A stretch of DNA of 64,000 nt from Enorma burkinafasonensis. GTDB taxonomy: Bacteria; Actinomycetota; Coriobacteriia; Coriobacteriales; Coriobacteriaceae. This document shows, one piece after another, positions 24,240 through 33,616 of this stretch (positions are counted from its first letter, which is position 1; every line of letters begins with the position of its first letter). Where the stretch lies: contig NZ_LR597504.1 of NCBI RefSeq assembly GCF_902150035.1, positions 62,001-126,000 on the forward strand. The letters run 5' to 3'. Position numbers and translations under genes: made by a program. The notes under the pieces were generated by a model that worked only from the letters and a program-made list of their open reading frames with translations, was not told the DNA's origin and searched no databases.

Positions 24240-24268
24240 GGCTTGCCTGACAACGTGAACGATTGTGT

Positions 24269-24304
24269 GTGGGGGCTCTCATTCTTATGATGCGGAGCCC
24301 CCAC
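24269..24304 (+). terminator. Hairpin after purB
   Basis: 10-bp perfect arms GTGGGGGCTC/GAGCCCCCAC (24269-24278, 24295-24304) around a 16-base loop. Only a weak T-rich stretch follows, so termination is likely but not certain. Confidence 0.6.
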
Positions 24305-24375
24305 GTTATGTTCCTCGGTATACTTTGTACGACCGAGATTCGTATCTGTCAGTTTTGAGATGGAAGAGGGTACCC

Positions 24376-26817
24376 ATGGTTGCGCTGGGTCATGCAGACG
24401 TAAATCGGAAAGGAAGGCGTAGCTGCTGGTTGGCCTCCGCCGTGATAGCCTGTGCGACTGCGCTGCTAATCTTCATGGCGGCACCCTCCACAATCTATGC
24501 CGATACGCTGGCATCCAATGAGACCCGCCAGTTCGGTGACTTCAAGGTGAAGACGGGGGCGGGCGAGACCGCTGACGTGAGCTGGGACGGGGGTAACCGA
24601 CGCCTCACGGTGACGAGCGGGTCGCTCACGGTTTCCAACACCAACCCGTCGACCGCGACCAACGATGTGATCTACATCTGCGGGACCGATGGAAGCGTTC
24701 CCATCGAGCTGACGCTCGATGGCGTGAACATCGCCACGACGGAGCGGAATCGCTCGCCCATCGAGATCGACAACCATGCCACGTCCAACGTGGTGATTAG
24801 GCTTGCGGGCGAGAACACTCTGAGCGCTTCGGGCGATATCGCTGCGGGAATCGAAAAGAGCAATGGGCAGAGGGGCGATGACCCCAATGTTGCGAGGCTC
24901 AAGATCACGAGCGCCTCGGGCGACGGTTCGACCGAAGGCGTGCTTCGGGTGACGACGAGCGGTAGGTGGGCGTCTGCCATCGGTGCCGCTGACACCAACA
25001 CCGTTGATGGTAAGAACGGAGACTGCAAGGGCATCACCATCGCAGGCGGTACAGTGCATGCGAGTGCAACGGGAGGGATGTCGTCGGGAATCGGTGCAAG
25101 CGGACACGGATCTGCGTGGGATATCTCCATAACAGGCGGGGTGGTGTATGCCTCCTCGATCGGGGATGCGGGGATATATTACACCTGGAATTCGACCATC
25201 ACCGGTGGATACGTTGTCACCGGTGCTTGGGAGGGGAACGCGCCCACAGGTGGCATGGTGAGCGTGGACAAGGGTGCCAACTTCGTTGTGTACGGCAACA
25301 CGAGCATGCCTTTTAATGTGACCGTTCCCAGCAACGGGACGCTCACGGTGAACGACGGCGCGACGCTCACGATTCCCCAAGGGACCACGTTGACCAACGA
25401 CGGGATCATCTACAACAACGGGGGCATCGTCGTCGAGGGCCAGCTGATCAACAAGGGCACGATCTGGAACGGCGGCTCACTTGGCGAGGTAGACGGATCG
25501 GGTGCGATTCTCAGCCAATTTGTAGAGGTGACGAGCGGTAGCGGCACCGGTGCCTATGAGGCGGGCGACACGGTGACCATCAAGGCGGATGAGTTCGATG
25601 ACGGCCGTGTGTTCGATCATTGGGAGGTTACCCACGGCAGCGACGTGACGTTCGAAGATGCCTGCAGCGCAACCACTACGTTCACCATGCCGGACGGCTA
25701 CGTCAGGATCCGCGCGGTGTACGTATACGTTCAGGCGACCGTGACATACGAAGATGGCACCGAGGGCAGGATCACGGTGTCGGAACCTGGCCGTCCCCTA
25801 AATCCTGATGGTTACAGCAACTGCACCATCACGCTTTCCGAGACGTATCCCTACGGAGACAACTGGGCCATCTACGTTTACCGCGCGAGCGATGTGGTTC
25901 TCGACCTGTCGGGGCGGTCGGTGCGCTTGAATGAAGGGCCGGGAGGAACATCGACCATACGAAACGGTGCGATATCAGTACGAGATATGATTCTCTACAG
26001 ACAGACACTTACGCTCGAGCACGTCGATGTGACTGGTGAGGATTACTCGGAGATAGCTCTCTCTAGTAATTCTGTGCTCATTGTCGGCGAGGGTGTGACA
26101 TTCTCAAACGGTGTGAACTTCTACAACAATGGCGTTATCCGCAAGCTCTGCACCGACGAGCGGGCGTACGACGGCACGGTCGAGCTAATGCACGATGTCG
26201 GTTCCGATGCGCGCATCGAGAACGACAACTTGGTCTACACCTGCGAGCGGTGCGGGCAGGCGGTGAGCGAGGCATGCAATGAGGTGCGCGATCCTTCGCT
26301 GGCCCTCGAGCTCGAGCAAGATCCTGTGTACGACGGCGAGCCCATCTCCGCGACGGTTGCAGCCAAGCGCGGGGAGGAAGACGTGGCGGATGAGGTGATC
26401 TTGTCCTACCGTGCCGCCGACGCGGCGGGAAGCGTCCCGTTCACGGATGGCCTGCCCTCAGCACCCGGCACGTACGTGGTCCGCGCCGTTTTGCCCGCTG
26501 CGTTGGTCCGGGCAAAGGACGGTACCGTCGTGGGTTACAACAGCATGGAGGTTGAGCGCGAGGTGGCCATCGCCGCTGAGGGCCAGGGCGGATCCAGCGA
26601 CGAAGGGGGCACGGGAAGCGGCTCTCACGGTGATTCTGTTCACGGAGACCAAAGCAATCAGCCCGGTGACGGGCAGCCCGAGGGTACTGGGGACTTGCTT
26701 GCCTCCACGGGAGATCCGCTTTCTGCGGTCGTCGCTGCATGCATGGGGTTTGGCGGAATATCGGTGGGTCTGGGTGCTGTGCTCCTGAGGAGCCGCCGTA
26801 TGTCGAATAGGGTATAG
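24376..26817 (+). CDS. Secreted beta-helix-like surface protein with LASTGD sorting signal
   Basis: An 813-residue protein. A signal peptide ends near PSTIYAD. Residues about 50-330 are rich in short beta-strand repeats (LTVSNTNPS, ELTLDGVNIATTER, VVIRLAGENTLSASG) like the carbohydrate-binding beta-helix domain family often seen in gut actinobacteria. A region resembling InlB-type B repeats follows (VEVTSGSGTGAYEAGDTVT, FDHWEVTHGSDVTF). The C-terminus carries LASTGDPLSA, a hydrophobic helix and RSRR, an LPXTG-like sorting signal with Ala in place of Pro. The DNA is visibly richer in A and T than its neighbours, which suggests acquisition. The ATG at 24376 has GAGGG close upstream. Ligand unknown. 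Confidence 0.8.
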   Translation: MVALGHADVNRKGRRSCWLASAVIACATALLIFMAAPSTIYADTLASNETRQFGDFKVKTGAGETADVSWDGGNRRLTVTSGSLTVSNTNPSTATNDVIYICGTDGSVPIELTLDGVNIATTERNRSPIEIDNHATSNVVIRLAGENTLSASGDIAAGIEKSNGQRGDDPNVARLKITSASGDGSTEGVLRVTTSGRWASAIGAADTNTVDGKNGDCKGITIAGGTVHASATGGMSSGIGASGHGSAWDISITGGVVYASSIGDAGIYYTWNSTITGGYVVTGAWEGNAPTGGMVSVDKGANFVVYGNTSMPFNVTVPSNGTLTVNDGATLTIPQGTTLTNDGIIYNNGGIVVEGQLINKGTIWNGGSLGEVDGSGAILSQFVEVTSGSGTGAYEAGDTVTIKADEFDDGRVFDHWEVTHGSDVTFEDACSATTTFTMPDGYVRIRAVYVYVQATVTYEDGTEGRITVSEPGRPLNPDGYSNCTITLSETYPYGDNWAIYVYRASDVVLDLSGRSVRLNEGPGGTSTIRNGAISVRDMILYRQTLTLEHVDVTGEDYSEIALSSNSVLIVGEGVTFSNGVNFYNNGVIRKLCTDERAYDGTVELMHDVGSDARIENDNLVYTCERCGQAVSEACNEVRDPSLALELEQDPVYDGEPISATVAAKRGEEDVADEVILSYRAADAAGSVPFTDGLPSAPGTYVVRAVLPAALVRAKDGTVVGYNSMEVEREVAIAAEGQGGSSDEGGTGSGSHGDSVHGDQSNQPGDGQPEGTGDLLASTGDPLSAVVAACMGFGGISVGLGAVLLRSRRMSNRV

Positions 26818-27366: not shown

Positions 27367-27925
27367 GGGCCGGCTGCTGGCGAGGGCTGTGCGCGCCGAG
27401 GCGCGATGGCTCTTCGTCGAAAACCAGGCGACGGCAGCTGCCCAAGCTGGCTGCGCGAGCCGTCGACCCGGCATCGAAACACACGACCCGCGTTCTTCAG
27501 CCTTCGAGGTGTGGGGAGCGCGGGTCTTTCGGTTCAGGGATATGCCTCCGTTTCGCGCATAGAGGCGGGAGGCCTTGCTGTCTGTGAAGCCCGAGTTTCA
27601 TTGCCGCTGCCTTTTGAAGTCCGCTGACCGCCATGACCGGAGCGCTCGAGCTCATACCGATTTAGAGCATCTAGCACGATAAATGCCAGGCGCCTCCTTT
27701 GAGCGCACCGCTTGCGGATAGCAGGCTACCGTTCACCAAAAGTTTCTTCATATCAAAGCAAGAAGAAAATCCTTCAACTAAACTAACTACGAAGTTTTTT
27801 CTCCGGCAGGTTAGTGATTCGCGCCAGCCGAGGGAAAGATGGAGCCGACGTCTGACGGGCCCATAGGGCGTCGGCTCGCGAGGTCTTTCCCACACCGGGG
27901 GAAACGAGGGAATTGGAGGTTCCTT
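27367..27925. other. 559-bp non-coding leader upstream of the RraA/transporter operon
   Basis: No convincing gene was seen on either strand. The segment 27721-27810 is much richer in A and T than its surroundings and contains purine runs (AAGAAGAAAATCC) and a GTTTTTTCTCC tract, so it is the likely promoter/operator zone. A 9-bp perfect inverted repeat, GAGCCGACG/CGTCGGCTC (27842-27850, 27869-27877), lies about 50 bp before the first start codon and could form a leader hairpin. It lacks a T-run, so it is not a clear terminator. Confidence 0.45.
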
Positions 27926-28627
27926 ATGCCCGTAGGCAACCGCGTGTATCAGCAGAGGAAGATGCCCGATCCCGCTCTGGTCGAGGCCTTCGCGAAGCTC
28001 CCGACCGCGAACATCGCCGACACCATGAACCGCTCCTGCGCCTGCAACCCGCGCATCAGGCTCATGTCCGATCCCGCCCAGCCCATCACGGCGGGCCCGG
28101 CCATAACCGTCAAGACCCGCGCCGGCGATAACCTCATGATCCATGCCGCGCTCGAGATGGTCCAGCCCGGCGACGTCCTGATCGTGAGCAACGAGGGCGA
28201 CTCCACCCGCTCGCTCATGGGCGAGATCATGTTCACCCTGGCACGCTACCGCAAGGTGGCGGCCATCGTGCTCGACGGTCCGATCCGCGATGCCGACGCC
28301 GTGGCCGAGATGGACTACCCGATCTACGCCACCGGCTCCACCCCGGGCGGCCCCTACAAGGAGGGCCCGGGCGAGGTCAACGTCCCGATCTCCTGCGGCA
28401 ACCTCGAGGTCAACCCGGGCGACATCATCGTCTGCGACGGTGACGGCGTGATCTGCGTCCCGCGCCAGGACGCCGCCGAGATCCTCGAGAAGGCCCAGGC
28501 GCTCTCCGCGAACGACCACAAGAAGGTCGAGGCCGCGGCGACCGGCACCTCGAAGCGCCAGTGGGTCCCCGACACGCTCGAGAAGAAGGGCGTCGAGTTC
28601 ATCGACGCGTGCTACGGCGAGGCGTAG
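27926..28627 (+). CDS. RraA-family protein (HMG aldolase / oxaloacetate decarboxylase-like)
   Basis: A 233-residue protein of the RraA-like fold. Family regions are ANIADTMNR, GPAITVKTRAGDNLMIH, QPGDVLIVSNEG, the segment starting MGEIMF, and VLDGPIRDADAV with the Arg-Asp pair that binds substrate and metal. Enzymes of this family cleave 4-hydroxy-4-methyl-2-oxoglutarate and decarboxylate oxaloacetate, while E. coli RraA inhibits RNase E. As I recall the aldolase motif, an acidic residue should follow the Arg-Asp pair after two positions; here it is Ala. The ATG at 27926 has TTGGAGG upstream. First gene of a probable operon with a symporter and an aminotransferase, which favours a metabolic role. 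Confidence 0.85.
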   Translation: MPVGNRVYQQRKMPDPALVEAFAKLPTANIADTMNRSCACNPRIRLMSDPAQPITAGPAITVKTRAGDNLMIHAALEMVQPGDVLIVSNEGDSTRSLMGEIMFTLARYRKVAAIVLDGPIRDADAVAEMDYPIYATGSTPGGPYKEGPGEVNVPISCGNLEVNPGDIIVCDGDGVICVPRQDAAEILEKAQALSANDHKKVEAAATGTSKRQWVPDTLEKKGVEFIDACYGEA

Positions 28628-28684
28628 GCGACGCGTCCTCTCGCATCGTACGACCCACCGATCTGATTTCTGAAAGGAACGCGC

Positions 28685-29935
28685 ATGCTGAAAGCTATCT
28701 TCAACAGCAAGCGGCTGCCATGGTACACCACGGCCGCCCTCTTCCTGGGCATCGGCTACGGCCTGATCGCCCCCGACATGGCGCTGGCGAGCAAGTGGCT
28801 CGGCGACATCTTCATGAACCTCATCAACATGGTCGTCGTCCCCATGGTGCTCTTCAGCATCATCTCCGGCATCGCCGGCATGAAGAACATCCAGCGCCTC
28901 GCCTCCATCGGCGGCCGCGTCATCATCGTCTTCATCGTCGTCGTGTTCATCGGCTGCCTTCTGGCATGGCCCATCACCGAGCTCATCAGCCCGGGCGTCG
29001 GCCTGAACTTCACGCCGACCGAGGAATATGACGCGTCCGGCCTCGGCGAGGTCTCGATGCTCGACTTCTTCGCGAACATCGTGCCGTCCAACATCATCCA
29101 GGCCATGGCCGATGCTGACTTCATGCAGGTCATCTTCTTCGCGGTCGTGTTCGGCATCGCGCTCGTGCTCCTCGGCGAGATGGGCGAGCCGCTCGCCAAC
29201 ATCTGCGACCTCGTCGCCCAGACCATCTACAAGGTGCTCGGCATCGTGCTGTGGTACATGCCCATCGGCGTCTTCTGCCTCATCGGCTGGACCGTCGCCG
29301 AGTACGGCCAGGTGCTCTTCCAGGGCCTCGCGATGTTCGTGCTCACCGACGTCACGTGCTGCCTGTCCGCCTTCGTGGTCCTCATGGCGATCACCTGTGC
29401 CTACACGCGCATCAACCCCTTCAAGCTCATCAAGAGCATGGTGCCCATCATCCTGAACACCGTCTCCACCAACTCCTCCGCGGCCACCATCCCCATCACG
29501 ATGAACGTGACCACCGAGGACCTGCGCGTGCCCAAGACCATCGCGAGCTTCTCGATCTCGCTCGGCCCCACCATCTGCAAGGCCGGTGCCGGTCTCTACA
29601 AGGTCGTCCTCCCGCTGTTCGTCGCCCAGATGTACGGCATCGACCTCGGCTTCGGCCAGGTGTTCACCTGCGTGCTCATCTCGACCTTCATGTCGATCGC
29701 CACGCCCGGCATCCCCGGCGGCGGTGTCGCCACCGGTGCCGTCATCCTCGGCATGATGGGTCTCCCGCTCGACATCATGGGCGCCATCGCCGGCCTCTAC
29801 CGCCTCATCGACATGGGCCACACCACGCTCAACGTCGCCGGCGGCCTCTTCGGCACCCTCATCGTCGCCAAGGAGACCAAGATGTGGGACGCGAGCGAGG
29901 CGTTCAAGCCCGCCCTCGAGGGCGAGACCGAGTAG
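28685..29935 (+). CDS. Dicarboxylate/amino acid:cation symporter (DAACS family)
   Basis: A 416-residue membrane transporter. It has the DAACS fold: multiple hydrophobic spans, MVVVPMVLFSIISGIAGM in the first half, the serine-rich re-entrant loop STNSSAATIPITMN, and the second loop in MSIATPGIPGGGVATGA followed by GLYRLIDMGHTTLNVAGG, where substrate-binding residues lie. It would import glutamate, aspartate or C4-dicarboxylates with Na+ or H+. The final Asp/Arg specificity position cannot be assigned safely by eye. It follows the RraA-like gene by 57 bp and precedes the aminotransferase. Confidence 0.9.
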   Translation: MLKAIFNSKRLPWYTTAALFLGIGYGLIAPDMALASKWLGDIFMNLINMVVVPMVLFSIISGIAGMKNIQRLASIGGRVIIVFIVVVFIGCLLAWPITELISPGVGLNFTPTEEYDASGLGEVSMLDFFANIVPSNIIQAMADADFMQVIFFAVVFGIALVLLGEMGEPLANICDLVAQTIYKVLGIVLWYMPIGVFCLIGWTVAEYGQVLFQGLAMFVLTDVTCCLSAFVVLMAITCAYTRINPFKLIKSMVPIILNTVSTNSSAATIPITMNVTTEDLRVPKTIASFSISLGPTICKAGAGLYKVVLPLFVAQMYGIDLGFGQVFTCVLISTFMSIATPGIPGGGVATGAVILGMMGLPLDIMGAIAGLYRLIDMGHTTLNVAGGLFGTLIVAKETKMWDASEAFKPALEGETE

Positions 29936-30004
29936 CGGCCGCCGTCCGCACCCCCGAATACCCAGATATCGCTTCGATCCAGTGCTTCGTTGAAAGGACA
30001 TCCT

Positions 30005-31198
30005 ATGGCAACCAGACTAGCCAGGCGCATGGAGCAGATCAGCGGTTCCCCCAGCTCCGCCCTCATCGCTCGCGTCGCCGAGCTGCGCCGTCAGGGTGAG
30101 AACATCGTCGGCCTCAACATCGGCGAGCCCGATTTCGGCACCCCGCCCGCGGCGAAGGTCGCCGGCATCAAGGCCATCTGCGAGAACTTCACCAAGTACA
30201 CACCCGGCGCCGGCATCGCCGAGCTGCGCGAGGAGATCATCAAGAAGCTCAAGCGCGACAACGGCCTCACCTACGACATGAACGAGATCGCCGTCACCGT
30301 GGGCGCCAAGCAGGCGATCGCGAACGCCCTGCTCGCGCTCGTCGACGAGGGCGACGAGGTGCTGCTGCCCGTGCCGTGCTGGGTGAGCTACACCGAGATG
30401 GTCAAGCTCGCCAACGCCACCCCGGTCTTCGTGCCCGTGCACGACGACTACACGCTCGACCTCGACGCCATCGAGGCGGCCATCACCCCCAACACCCGCG
30501 CCATCGTGATCTGCACGCCCAACAACCCCACGGGTGCCGTGTACAGCCGCGAGAGCCTGCAGAAGCTCGCCGACCTCGCCATCGAGCACGACTTCATGGT
30601 CATCGCCGACGAGATCTACGAGCGCCTGATCTACGACGGCTACGAGCACGTGAGCATCGCCTCGCTCTCGCAGGAGGCCTGGGAGCACACCATCACGGTG
30701 AACGGCATGTCCAAGGCCTTCGCCATGACCGGCTGGCGCATCGGTTACGCGGCCGGCAACAAGACGGTCCTGAAGGCCATGAAGGCGCTGCAGACCCAGC
30801 AGACCTCGGCCACGAGCGCCATCTCGCAGAAGGCCGCCGTCGACGCGCTGAAGTACGCCGAGCCCGACGTCGAGGCCATGGTGGCCGAGTTCGCGAAGCG
30901 CCGCGACCACATCATGGAGCTCATCGAGGGCACCGAGGGCTTCTCGTGCCCGACCCCGCACGGCGCGTTCTACGCGTACGTGGACGTGACCCCGCTCTTC
31001 GGCAAGAAGGCCGGCGACCAGGAGATCGCAAGCTCCATGGACCTCGCGGCCTACCTGCTCGATGACGCCAAGGTGGCGCTGCTCCCCGGCGAGAACTTCG
31101 GCTTGGGCGGCAGGATCCGCATGTCGTACGCCACCTCGATGGAGAACCTGGACGAGGCGTTCAAGCGCATGCGCGCCTCCCTCGCCAAACTCTCCTAG
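30005..31198 (+). CDS. Class I pyridoxal-phosphate aminotransferase (AspC-like)
   Basis: A 397-residue fold-type I enzyme. Visible features are NIGEPDFGTPP, TVGAKQAIANA, the cofactor-binding CTPNNPTGAVY and DEIYERLIYDG, the Schiff-base lysine in VNGMSKAFAMTGWRIGY, and the C-terminal carboxylate-binding arginine in GGRIRMSYA. Closest in type to bacterial aspartate aminotransferases of subgroup I-beta. The ATG at 30005 follows TGAAAGGA. In context it could convert the imported amino acid to its 2-oxo acid for the upstream RraA-like enzyme. Confidence 0.9.
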   Translation: MATRLARRMEQISGSPSSALIARVAELRRQGENIVGLNIGEPDFGTPPAAKVAGIKAICENFTKYTPGAGIAELREEIIKKLKRDNGLTYDMNEIAVTVGAKQAIANALLALVDEGDEVLLPVPCWVSYTEMVKLANATPVFVPVHDDYTLDLDAIEAAITPNTRAIVICTPNNPTGAVYSRESLQKLADLAIEHDFMVIADEIYERLIYDGYEHVSIASLSQEAWEHTITVNGMSKAFAMTGWRIGYAAGNKTVLKAMKALQTQQTSATSAISQKAAVDALKYAEPDVEAMVAEFAKRRDHIMELIEGTEGFSCPTPHGAFYAYVDVTPLFGKKAGDQEIASSMDLAAYLLDDAKVALLPGENFGLGGRIRMSYATSMENLDEAFKRMRASLAKLS

Positions 31199-31288
31199 GA
31201 CCTTGTGTTTCCGGTCCGCGCCATCCCCTCCTGCGGACCTTCCTGTGGTGGGCGCGAGCGGGAGCTGATTCCCAATCGTGTGGAAACG

Positions 31289-31322
31289 GGGGAGCTGGTC
31301 TCTACCGGCTCCCCATTCTTGT
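31289..31322 (+). terminator. Hairpin terminator after the aminotransferase gene
   Basis: GGGGAGC (31289-31295) pairs with GCTCCCC (31308-31314), followed by ATTCTTGT. Confidence 0.6.
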
Positions 31323-31470
31323 GCGAAAATTTTTCTTCAGGTACATTTCATGGCGCTACCTGTAACTGCATCGTGTAGCCTCCCGTTACGGTGCCAGCGC
31401 GGCGCCGGCGGATGTCGCAGCCAAGATGTTGCAGGCATTGCGTCGTGTCGCATCGCGGGAAGGGGACCTT

Positions 31471-32340
31471 TTGACATCGGCTGTACTCACGGACATCAAA
31501 TCCAAGGTCAAGGACCTTAACCTCACCCAGACCGAGAAGGCGATCGCCGATTTCCTCTTCGACAACTATGACAACCTCGCCTTCTTGACGATCTCGGACT
31601 TCGCGACGCGCAGCAAGACGAGCGAGGCCTCGGTCATCCGCTTCCTGCGCCGTCTGGGGTTCTCCGGGTACTCGGAGTTCAAGCAGGTGCTCCAGGGTGA
31701 CTTCATCGGCCGCAACGCGGAGGCGCTCACCCCGGGCCAGAAGTACCGCAGCGAGAACGGTAACCTGCGCCTGAGCGACCTCGCCAACCGTGTCGTCCTC
31801 CAGGCGATCGAGAACCTCTACCACACGTTCGAGCAGATGGACTCGGAGGGCACCTCGATCAAGGAGGTCTCCCACCTGTTCGCCAGCTCCAACCGTGTGT
31901 ACGTCGGCGGATTCCGCGGCCCCCATTGCTGCGCGAGCTACCTGGCTCAGCGCCTCAACCTCCTGCGCGGCAACGTCGTGCTTCTGGAGAACTCGAGTGC
32001 CGACGCCATCGAGCGGATCGCGGACTGCACTGAGGGCGATTGCGTGGTCGTCTTCACGTTCCCGCGGTACTCGACCATAGGCGGCTCGATGCTTGAGATA
32101 GCGAAAGGTAAGGGCGCCACGACCGTGCTCGTGACGGATAGCGTTTCCTGCCCGTTTTCTCGCCATGCGGACCACCTGTTCTCGGTTGCGGTCGAGAGTG
32201 CGGGCTTCAGCAATTCGTACGTCGCGCCCATGGCGCTCGCCGATGCGCTCATCATGAGCGTCCAGAAGCAGACCGCCGGCGCGAGCGAGCAGCGCCTCGA
32301 CCTCATCGAGCGCTATCTGGCCGAGCACGATTGCTACTAA
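31471..32340 (+). CDS. RpiR/MurR-family transcriptional regulator
   Basis: A 289-residue regulator. The N-terminal HTH_6 domain (LTQTEKAIADFLFDN, FATRSKTSEASVIRFLRRLGFSGYSEFK) is followed by a SIS sugar-phosphate-type sensor domain (SSNRVYVGGFRGPHCCASYLAQ, VVFTFPRYST). I prefer the TTG at 31471, preceded by GGGAAGGGGA, because it gives the usual family length; an in-frame ATG at 31426 lacks a ribosome-binding site. It lies just downstream of the RraA-symporter-aminotransferase operon, so it is the obvious candidate regulator. RpiR proteins usually bind phosphosugars, but some family members control amino-acid or dicarboxylate use. Confidence 0.88.
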   Translation: MTSAVLTDIKSKVKDLNLTQTEKAIADFLFDNYDNLAFLTISDFATRSKTSEASVIRFLRRLGFSGYSEFKQVLQGDFIGRNAEALTPGQKYRSENGNLRLSDLANRVVLQAIENLYHTFEQMDSEGTSIKEVSHLFASSNRVYVGGFRGPHCCASYLAQRLNLLRGNVVLLENSSADAIERIADCTEGDCVVVFTFPRYSTIGGSMLEIAKGKGATTVLVTDSVSCPFSRHADHLFSVAVESAGFSNSYVAPMALADALIMSVQKQTAGASEQRLDLIERYLAEHDCY

Positions 32341-32359: not shown

Positions 32360-33616
32360 ATGAGCATCTTCGGCAACAAATTGCGCGGTGACGCGCCCGC
32401 GGGGGCACCTGCTCCGCGCGGCGGCATCTCACGGCGAGCGTTCACGGCGGGAAGCCTCGCGGCGGGCGCCGGGCTCGCGGCGATCTCGCTCGTGGGCTGC
32501 TCGTCCGAGGAGTCGGCTCCCGCGACGGGCGACCCGCAGGTGGTGACCGACGACTCGCAGATCATCGCCGTGATGGACGGCGACTACGAGAGCGTCGACG
32601 CCACGCCGGCGGTGTCCTACGCCTGGACGCTCCCCTTGGGCACCATGCTCTTCCATACCGGCGGGGGCTCCTGGGCGGCGGCGCTCTTCACGCCCGCCTC
32701 GGCCGGCAACGCCAACACGCTCGGCATCGTGAGCCTCGCCACGGGCAACCCCAGCACCCTCATGGAGACGCCCACGCAGGGCGCCCGGTACGATTTCTTC
32801 GACGTGCGCTGTTCGAGCGGCGTCTACGCGTGGGTCGAGATCAACTACACCGACCGCAGCTGGCTGCTCCTCGCGCAGGAGCTTTCCAACGGCTCGCTCG
32901 TGGGCAAGGCCGTGAAGCTCGACGAGGGCGACGCCGATTGGGAGCCGCCGCGCTTCACCACGTGGGAGTCGAGCGTCATCTGGCAGAAGATGCCGCTCGC
33001 GACCGGCTCGAAGTCGTCCTCCTACTCGCATTGCTACCGCTGGACCGTCGGCTCCGACCAGGGCGTGGAGATCCGCGAGTCGCACGGGCGCTTCGCGACC
33101 GCGCCGCGAGTCGCCGATGGCATCCTCACCATCACGCCGCGCGTGCACGAGGACGAGGGCACCTACTACGGCATGACGGCGATCGACCTTTCCGACGAGT
33201 CGTTCACCCAGATCGACCAGCTGGTGCTACCGCGCTCGGTGTCGCCGTTCGACGCCGTCTACGTGAACGAGGTCTTCGCCTTCTCGATCGAGGCCTCGTA
33301 CAACGGCGTGGGGAGCCTCGGCAACATGGGGACCTACATCGGCCGCGAGGGCGGGCCGTACATCTACCTGCGCCGCGAGCCGCTCGCACAGGTGACGGCC
33401 CGGGGCTCGCGCTACCTCGTCAAGTCACAGGCGTCGAACATCCTGGTGGATACCGAGGAGCAGACCTTCGCCGTCATCACCGCGCCCGACCGCTCGCTCG
33501 ATTTCGGCGACTGGCCCGCGACGGAGGGCGTCTCGGACCGCTTCGTGACGTATGCGACCGTGCGCGACGAGACCGGCGTGCCCGCGAGCGTGTCGGTGCG
33601 CGTGTTCGGGCTGTAG
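32360..33616 (+). CDS. Predicted Tat-exported lipoprotein, function unknown
   Basis: A 418-residue protein. The N-terminus has a twin-arginine motif and lipobox: ISRRAFTAGSLAAGAGLAA, then SLVGCSS, so it should be folded in the cytoplasm, exported by Tat and lipidated at the Cys. The mature part has regular beta-strand patterns with Trp- and Asp-rich turns (SYAWTLPLG, GGGSWAAALF, TTWESSVIWQ, DFGDWPATEG). These suggest a beta-propeller, though I do not recognise a named family. It starts 19 bp after the RpiR gene and ends 2 bp before the convergent acetyltransferase. Confidence 0.7.
   Translation: MSIFGNKLRGDAPAGAPAPRGGISRRAFTAGSLAAGAGLAAISLVGCSSEESAPATGDPQVVTDDSQIIAVMDGDYESVDATPAVSYAWTLPLGTMLFHTGGGSWAAALFTPASAGNANTLGIVSLATGNPSTLMETPTQGARYDFFDVRCSSGVYAWVEINYTDRSWLLLAQELSNGSLVGKAVKLDEGDADWEPPRFTTWESSVIWQKMPLATGSKSSSYSHCYRWTVGSDQGVEIRESHGRFATAPRVADGILTITPRVHEDEGTYYGMTAIDLSDESFTQIDQLVLPRSVSPFDAVYVNEVFAFSIEASYNGVGSLGNMGTYIGREGGPYIYLRREPLAQVTARGSRYLVKSQASNILVDTEEQTFAVITAPDRSLDFGDWPATEGVSDRFVTYATVRDETGVPASVSVRVFGL

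Follow-up and report, generated by a model that had tools for sequence, protein, structure and literature searches.

A four-gene module links a predicted RraA-like lyase to an aminotransferase

Four consecutive genes of the window (the whole 64-kb stretch of DNA analysed here) encode a predicted RraA-like class II 2-oxo-acid lyase, a carrier of the DAACS/SLC1 type, a class I aminotransferase and a MurR/RpiR-family regulator, forming a module that is built of known families and has not been characterised previously. The order of these genes is not due to chance, as it recurs across phyla. Leaving any particular substrate aside, we consider it fairly probable that the module leads from an amino acid, through a 2-oxo acid, to pyruvate.

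The four open reading frames listed in an earlier note on this DNA all lie on the + strand, and Pfam assigns them to the families named there. The first (27926..28627, 233 aa) matches PF03737 (E 2.8e-47, 161.2 bits for a gathering score of 24.5), which places it in the RraA-like superfamily, and it belongs to the PRK06201/NF004850 subfamily. The second (28685..29935, 416 aa) is a DAACS member (PF00375, E 2.5e-100, 336.7 bits, gathering score 27.9), and the third (30005..31198, 397 aa) is a class I/II aminotransferase (PF00155, E 3.3e-80) resembling subgroup Ib of the aspartate aminotransferases (AspATs), an accessory rather than a housekeeping enzyme. The fourth (31471..32340, 289 aa counted from the TTG at 31471) combines PF01418 (HTH_6) and PF01380 (SIS), as expected for the MurR/RpiR family. 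Its start could be this TTG, which has a GGGAAGGGGA ribosome site, or an ATG at 31426; the TTG is more likely the true start, given the ribosome site and the N-terminus of the relative from genome G007 (MSASVLEDM...), which matches MTSAVLTDI.... A terminator-like hairpin, called from a consensus match only, lies between the aminotransferase and rpiR genes (31289..31314, + strand).

Conservation of the gene order

The earlier note had asked whether the four-gene order is found in other genomes. Indeed, the rraA-transporter-aminotransferase-rpiR arrangement extends well beyond one strain and is present in Coriobacteriia, Oscillospirales, Negativicutes and Acholeplasmataceae bins. G007, from the same family, carries the four genes in the window's order and is the single such other member among the whole-genome relatives. 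About 85,000 species genomes were scanned, which retrieved 24 loci with RraA relatives. Where these relatives reach at least 60% identity, the aminotransferase gene adjoins rraA or lies near it in every case (9/9), and DAACS and rpiR genes accompany it in the window's order in five of the nine: in Selenomonadales (L005, where the order is kept and an HD-domain gene is inserted), Oscillospiraceae (L009), two Acholeplasmataceae bins (L010, L018) and Phascolarctobacterium faecium (L012). The DAACS carrier is replaced by an NhaC-type carrier in L006, L007 and L008 (the latter a truncated locus) and by a tripartite TctCBA carrier in L011, and the aminotransferase stays in relatives with either replacement. 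Beyond the window, the module order is thus found in six loci with DAACS and in four with another transporter, and rpiR is the last gene of the unit in every complete locus. The link between rraA and the aminotransferase is strong but not absolute, since the RraA relative of L067, a whole-genome match at 61%, has no aminotransferase. Our literature searches on RraA with RpiR, or on RraA with aminotransferase clusters, returned no report.

More distant RraA relatives occur without the aminotransferase and are accompanied by D-2-hydroxyacid dehydrogenases, DUF1932/6PGDH-like dehydrogenases or Ldh_2 enzymes; several of these loci carry DASS or DctM-type carriers. As an aminotransferase and a 2-hydroxyacid dehydrogenase both yield a 2-oxo acid, this exchange supports a lyase that takes its 2-oxo acid substrate from the enzyme encoded next to it.

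Other arrangements were observed around RraA genes. Sister genes in L081 (5973-12284) and L079 (5321-8190) are accompanied by a DUF1932 dehydrogenase or a 2-hydroxyacid dehydrogenase together with an EF_0837-type amidohydrolase, and in L081 additionally by DUF6282; these loci are another uncharacterised 2-oxo-acid unit. In L078 (6177-8586), the RraA relative adjoins an AtuA-like gene (PF07287) and a short DUF4387-like gene, and in Clostridiales bacterium CCNA10, apart from the aminotransferase module, another RraA paralogue lies beside a DctM-type permease (L080, 7427-9558).

The RraA-like protein resembles the HMG/CHA aldolase

The closest solved sequence to the RraA-like protein is the HMG/CHA aldolase 3NOJ (LigK/PcmE type; E 1.4e-32). 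The AlphaFold model (pLDDT 92.8) also has its best match there (Z 30 over 228 residues), well above the alignment with E. coli RraA (Z 22.7 over 154), which indicates that the protein and the aldolase have a C-terminal extension in common. The residues that matter in the aldolase are R123, N71, K147, D124 and E199, and most of its homologues carry one of two motifs (PMC5065237). In the alignment, R36, N69, H73, R121, D122 and K145 of the RraA-like protein correspond to aldolase R40, N71, H75, R123, D124 and K147, while D197 falls in the E199/E200 region, one column off E199, where the helix is loosely aligned.

The class II pyruvate lyase motif, an Arg-Asp pair with a metal-side acid, is formed by E100, R121 and D122 (E100-X20-R121-D122). 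According to the motif definition reportedly given by Mazurkewich in 2014, the metal-side acid is located at D/E-X20-R-D or at RD-X2-E/D. In RraA-fold lyases of this class, Glu is known in place of Asp at this position. Glu100 (aldolase D102) is found in 39 of 41 related sequences, a state that is partly selected in the loci of the 85,000-genome scan, whose patterns included LMGEIMF, and free of this selection in the relatives from separate genome-sample searches. The two exceptions, L005 with Ala100 and one L027 protein with Gly100, both carry Glu125, the reciprocal exchange that one would expect if the metal-side acid can be placed at either site. The alanine that the earlier note had seen after the Arg-Asp pair is there (R121 D122 A123 D124 A125), but the altered chemistry that it was taken to hint at does not follow: the metal-side acid is Glu100, so Ala125 is no anomaly.

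The window protein therefore has in common with the aldolase the full-length fold, the Arg-Asp motif, the pocket Asn, His and Lys and an acid 21 residues before the Arg. It differs in having Glu for Asp102, in that Arg195 is not conserved and in scoring below the LigK/PcmE CHA aldolase equivalog cut-offs (TIGR02798, 145.9 for 304.5; NF006731, 160.9 for 179). The genomic context also differs, the aldolase being located with aromatic-ring-cleavage genes and the window lyase with an aminotransferase. Scores for the RNase E regulator RraA are below the cut-offs as well (TIGR02998, 39.9 for 241; NF006875, 81.7 for 136). The model match to the HMG/CHA aldolase and the retention of the aldolase's catalytic residues suggest that the RraA-like protein is catalytic. 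Nevertheless, the RraA family includes members without lyase activity, such as E. coli RraA. It also includes a KDGR dehydratase/decarboxylase (PMC8563752) and, with such diversity, the reaction of the window protein could differ.

A carrier that points away from ordinary aspartate, and an AspAT-like aminotransferase

Carrier residues were read from an alignment with GltTk of seven module carriers and typical paralogues of the same genomes. Module carriers have the family assignment, the hairpin motifs and the D394 and N401 equivalents in common with the aspartate and glutamate carriers GltPh, GltTk and GltP. In contrast, the position of GltPh Arg397 is occupied by His in all seven, including the window carrier, which thus lacks the Arg of acidic amino-acid DAACS proteins; the typical paralogues keep it. 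Thr314 is replaced by Ala in six of the seven (Phe in L005) and NMDGT by CKAGA or NLxGA. The two Coriobacterial copies have CKAGA together with Gly for Asp405, so that the Na+-coupling signature (NMDGT in TM7 and Asp405) is absent from the window protein, and the module carriers display neither this signature nor the H+-coupled one described for DAACS/SLC1 carriers.

The side chain of aspartate makes its main contact with Arg397 and its amino group with Asp394, D394 and N401 binding the amino group and the main-chain carboxylate (PMC12668577). The R397C mutant of GltPh loses aspartate transport and gains that of serine and alanine (PMC5750217). From this behaviour, the change of Arg397 to His and the retention of Asp394, the carrier is predicted to couple ions in an unusual way and to move an amino acid, though neither ordinary aspartate nor ordinary glutamate; with His in place, a carboxylate may still be bound. 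The import of an acidic amino acid or dicarboxylate suggested in the earlier note is consequently weakened and can no longer be held with confidence, as the Arg that reads the side-chain carboxylate is His in all module carriers. Independent origins of His397 were considered for the very divergent L005 carrier and are not claimed, as the DAACS tree needs a single change (in a weakly supported grouping, 87/63). The NhaC-type carrier that replaces DAACS in some loci has a weak resemblance to ArcD, the arginine/ornithine antiporter.

The aminotransferase matches the subgroup Ib AspATs SmAatA (6F77) and AtPAT (5WMH) at about 327-329 bits and, like them, has the GxKQ lysine, the Schiff-base lysine and the carboxylate-binding arginine of RxSY. 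It differs from them in that every module enzyme reads PCW for PYW, and it scores below every AspAT equivalog cut-off in NCBIfam (best 400.8 for 617). The Cys of PCW was rejected as a mark of the module only, since PCW also occurs in some more distant aminotransferases. The subgroup Ib likeness and the three retained residues suggest that at least one substrate is probably dicarboxylic, a reading in which we take the GxKQ lysine to play a role.

Predicted operators and regulation

The palindrome GAA-N5-TTC occurs four times in the window. Two of these sites form a tandem pair upstream of rraA (27765..27801, + strand; 27765-27775 and 27791-27801, 26 bp apart) and another lies upstream of rpiR (31325..31335, + strand). 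A tandem arrangement with a spacing of 10-30 bp is found only once in the 2.23-Mb genome. The motif is also located upstream of rraA in L006, L007, L009 and L012, with a looser second copy 30 bp further on in the first three; its exact form was not found at this place in G007, L005 and L011. As it was recognised by eye on the relatives and the window together, the match in the window is not fully independent. GAA-N5-TTC is likely the RpiR operator, and rpiR is predicted to be autoregulated. A sigma-70 promoter match was sought near the module and not found, and the RNA-family search gave only tRNAs, so that no known riboswitch explains the control of the module.

The window regulator resembles other MurR/RpiR regulators in its HTH_6 and SIS domains and its predicted palindromic operator. 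It differs in that its SIS domain has SFPRYS and GFRGxxCC loops, the former apparently departing from the Ser/Thr sugar-phosphate loop that is usual in SIS domains. Its ligand is probably something other than a simple sugar phosphate, and the earlier view of RpiR control here as atypical was a fair one.

Distribution and probable transfer

The module is carried by 2 of 296 Coriobacteriia genomes. Close relatives also occur in 3 of 391 genomes sampled around CCNA10 and 2 of 295 sampled around L009, and 1 of 299 genomes of the Phascolarctobacterium phylum sample has a relative at or above 60%. None of the four same-genus genomes carries the module. In two of them a close aminotransferase was also sought without success, the best being about 33% identical, which is the level of the other aminotransferases in the window's own genome. 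The module-type DAACS was not found in 291 genomes of the CCNA10 class, in a search run without a positive control.

In the same-genus genome G001, purB directly adjoins the lipoprotein gene that follows the module in the window, leaving an empty site. These two genes also adjoin in G007, whose module is about 600 kb away (coordinates of the empty site in G001 and G007: L124 5199-8137 and L126 5611-8650). The empty site supports a gain of the module by transfer, and the module, which is rare and sporadic, has probably spread horizontally.

Between purB and the module, the window holds a gene for an 850-aa surface-type protein (24265-26817) with an STGDPL-like C-terminal sorting region and a hydrophobic tail, which may be part of the inserted segment. 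The lipoprotein-like gene (32360-33616) is conserved in 7/7 relatives tested and has no match in Pfam or NCBIfam.

Proposed pathway and alternatives

In the route that we favour, the carrier would import an alpha-amino acid, and the aminotransferase would pass its amino group to a dicarboxylic acceptor of the 2-oxoglutarate type, giving a 2-oxo acid. The presumably metal-dependent lyase would then cleave this acid via a pyruvate-enolate intermediate to pyruvate and one further small product, either CO2 or another oxo acid. As no further enzyme is conserved in the module, the products should enter central metabolism directly. RpiR would repress the unit and its own gene through the GAA-N5-TTC operators until a pathway metabolite binds the SIS domain. 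The gene order and its conservation, the families, the catalytic residues, the substitutions in the carrier and the single occurrence of the tandem motif are computed results; the substrate, the direction, the co-substrate, the RpiR ligand and the repression are inferred from them. A sequence of import, transamination and 2-oxo-acid cleavage had been proposed in the earlier note; it gains from the conserved unit with RpiR, the retained catalytic residues and the 2-hydroxyacid dehydrogenase replacements in relatives, and its acidic substrate is the part that is weakened. The substrate is probably a gamma-hydroxy or branched glutamate analogue rather than plain aspartate or glutamate; 4-hydroxy-4-methylglutamate, for example, would give two pyruvates.

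Plain aspartate catabolism, in which imported aspartate is transaminated to oxaloacetate and the RraA-like protein decarboxylates this to pyruvate and CO2, was the first example given in the earlier note. It is not our preferred reading given the carrier His, and we regard it as unlikely, even though oxaloacetate decarboxylation is an activity of the HMG/CHA aldolase (PMC5065237), the module has an AspAT-like aminotransferase with the GxKQ lysine, no extra enzyme would be required and the DASS carriers of RraA relatives would suit malate. Two of the positions changed in the carrier, Arg397 to His and Thr314 to Ala, coordinate aspartate (PMC12668577), and GltPh R397C no longer carries it (PMC5750217). 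The turn of GltPh to neutral amino acids once Arg397 is lost (PMC5750217) would suit the import of a neutral gamma-hydroxy amino acid and its cleavage to pyruvate and an aldehyde, as would the weakly ArcD-like NhaC-type replacement. However, no aldehyde-handling enzyme is conserved in the module, and the DASS and TctCBA replacements favour carboxylates, making this somewhat more doubtful still.

Aldolases and aminotransferases are reversible, and a lyase working in the condensing direction could make a 4-hydroxy amino acid from pyruvate for export, by a carrier that could act as an exchanger after losing Na+-site residues (the NMD motif and, in the Coriobacterial copies, also D405). We find such a biosynthetic unit very improbable, since a regulated transporter unit whose carrier is swapped for uptake families (TctCBA with its binding protein) points to uptake. 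That the protein is an RNase E regulator in an incidental position is scarcely credible: the PF03737 fold is common to E. coli RraA (Z 22.7), but the RraA equivalog scores are far under their cut-offs, the aldolase catalytic residues and C-terminal extension are present and the gene is tied to metabolic genes across phyla.

Returning to the catabolic route via a glutamate analogue, we propose, as a tentative hypothesis to which we give somewhat less than even weight, that the module is an undescribed pathway by which gut and digester anaerobes use an amino acid outside the proteinogenic set, such as a 4-substituted 4-hydroxyglutamate from plants or the host, imported through a new SLC1/DAACS specificity class marked by His397 and the lost Na+ motif. 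This hypothesis is open to direct tests, thanks to the substitution in the carrier and the unique pair of operators. If it is true, part of the widespread "hypothetical" RraA subfamily PRK06201 would have a metabolic job, SLC1 carriers would offer a natural test of a change in substrate and ion coupling, and anaerobes of guts and digesters would use an amino acid that annotation would not predict.
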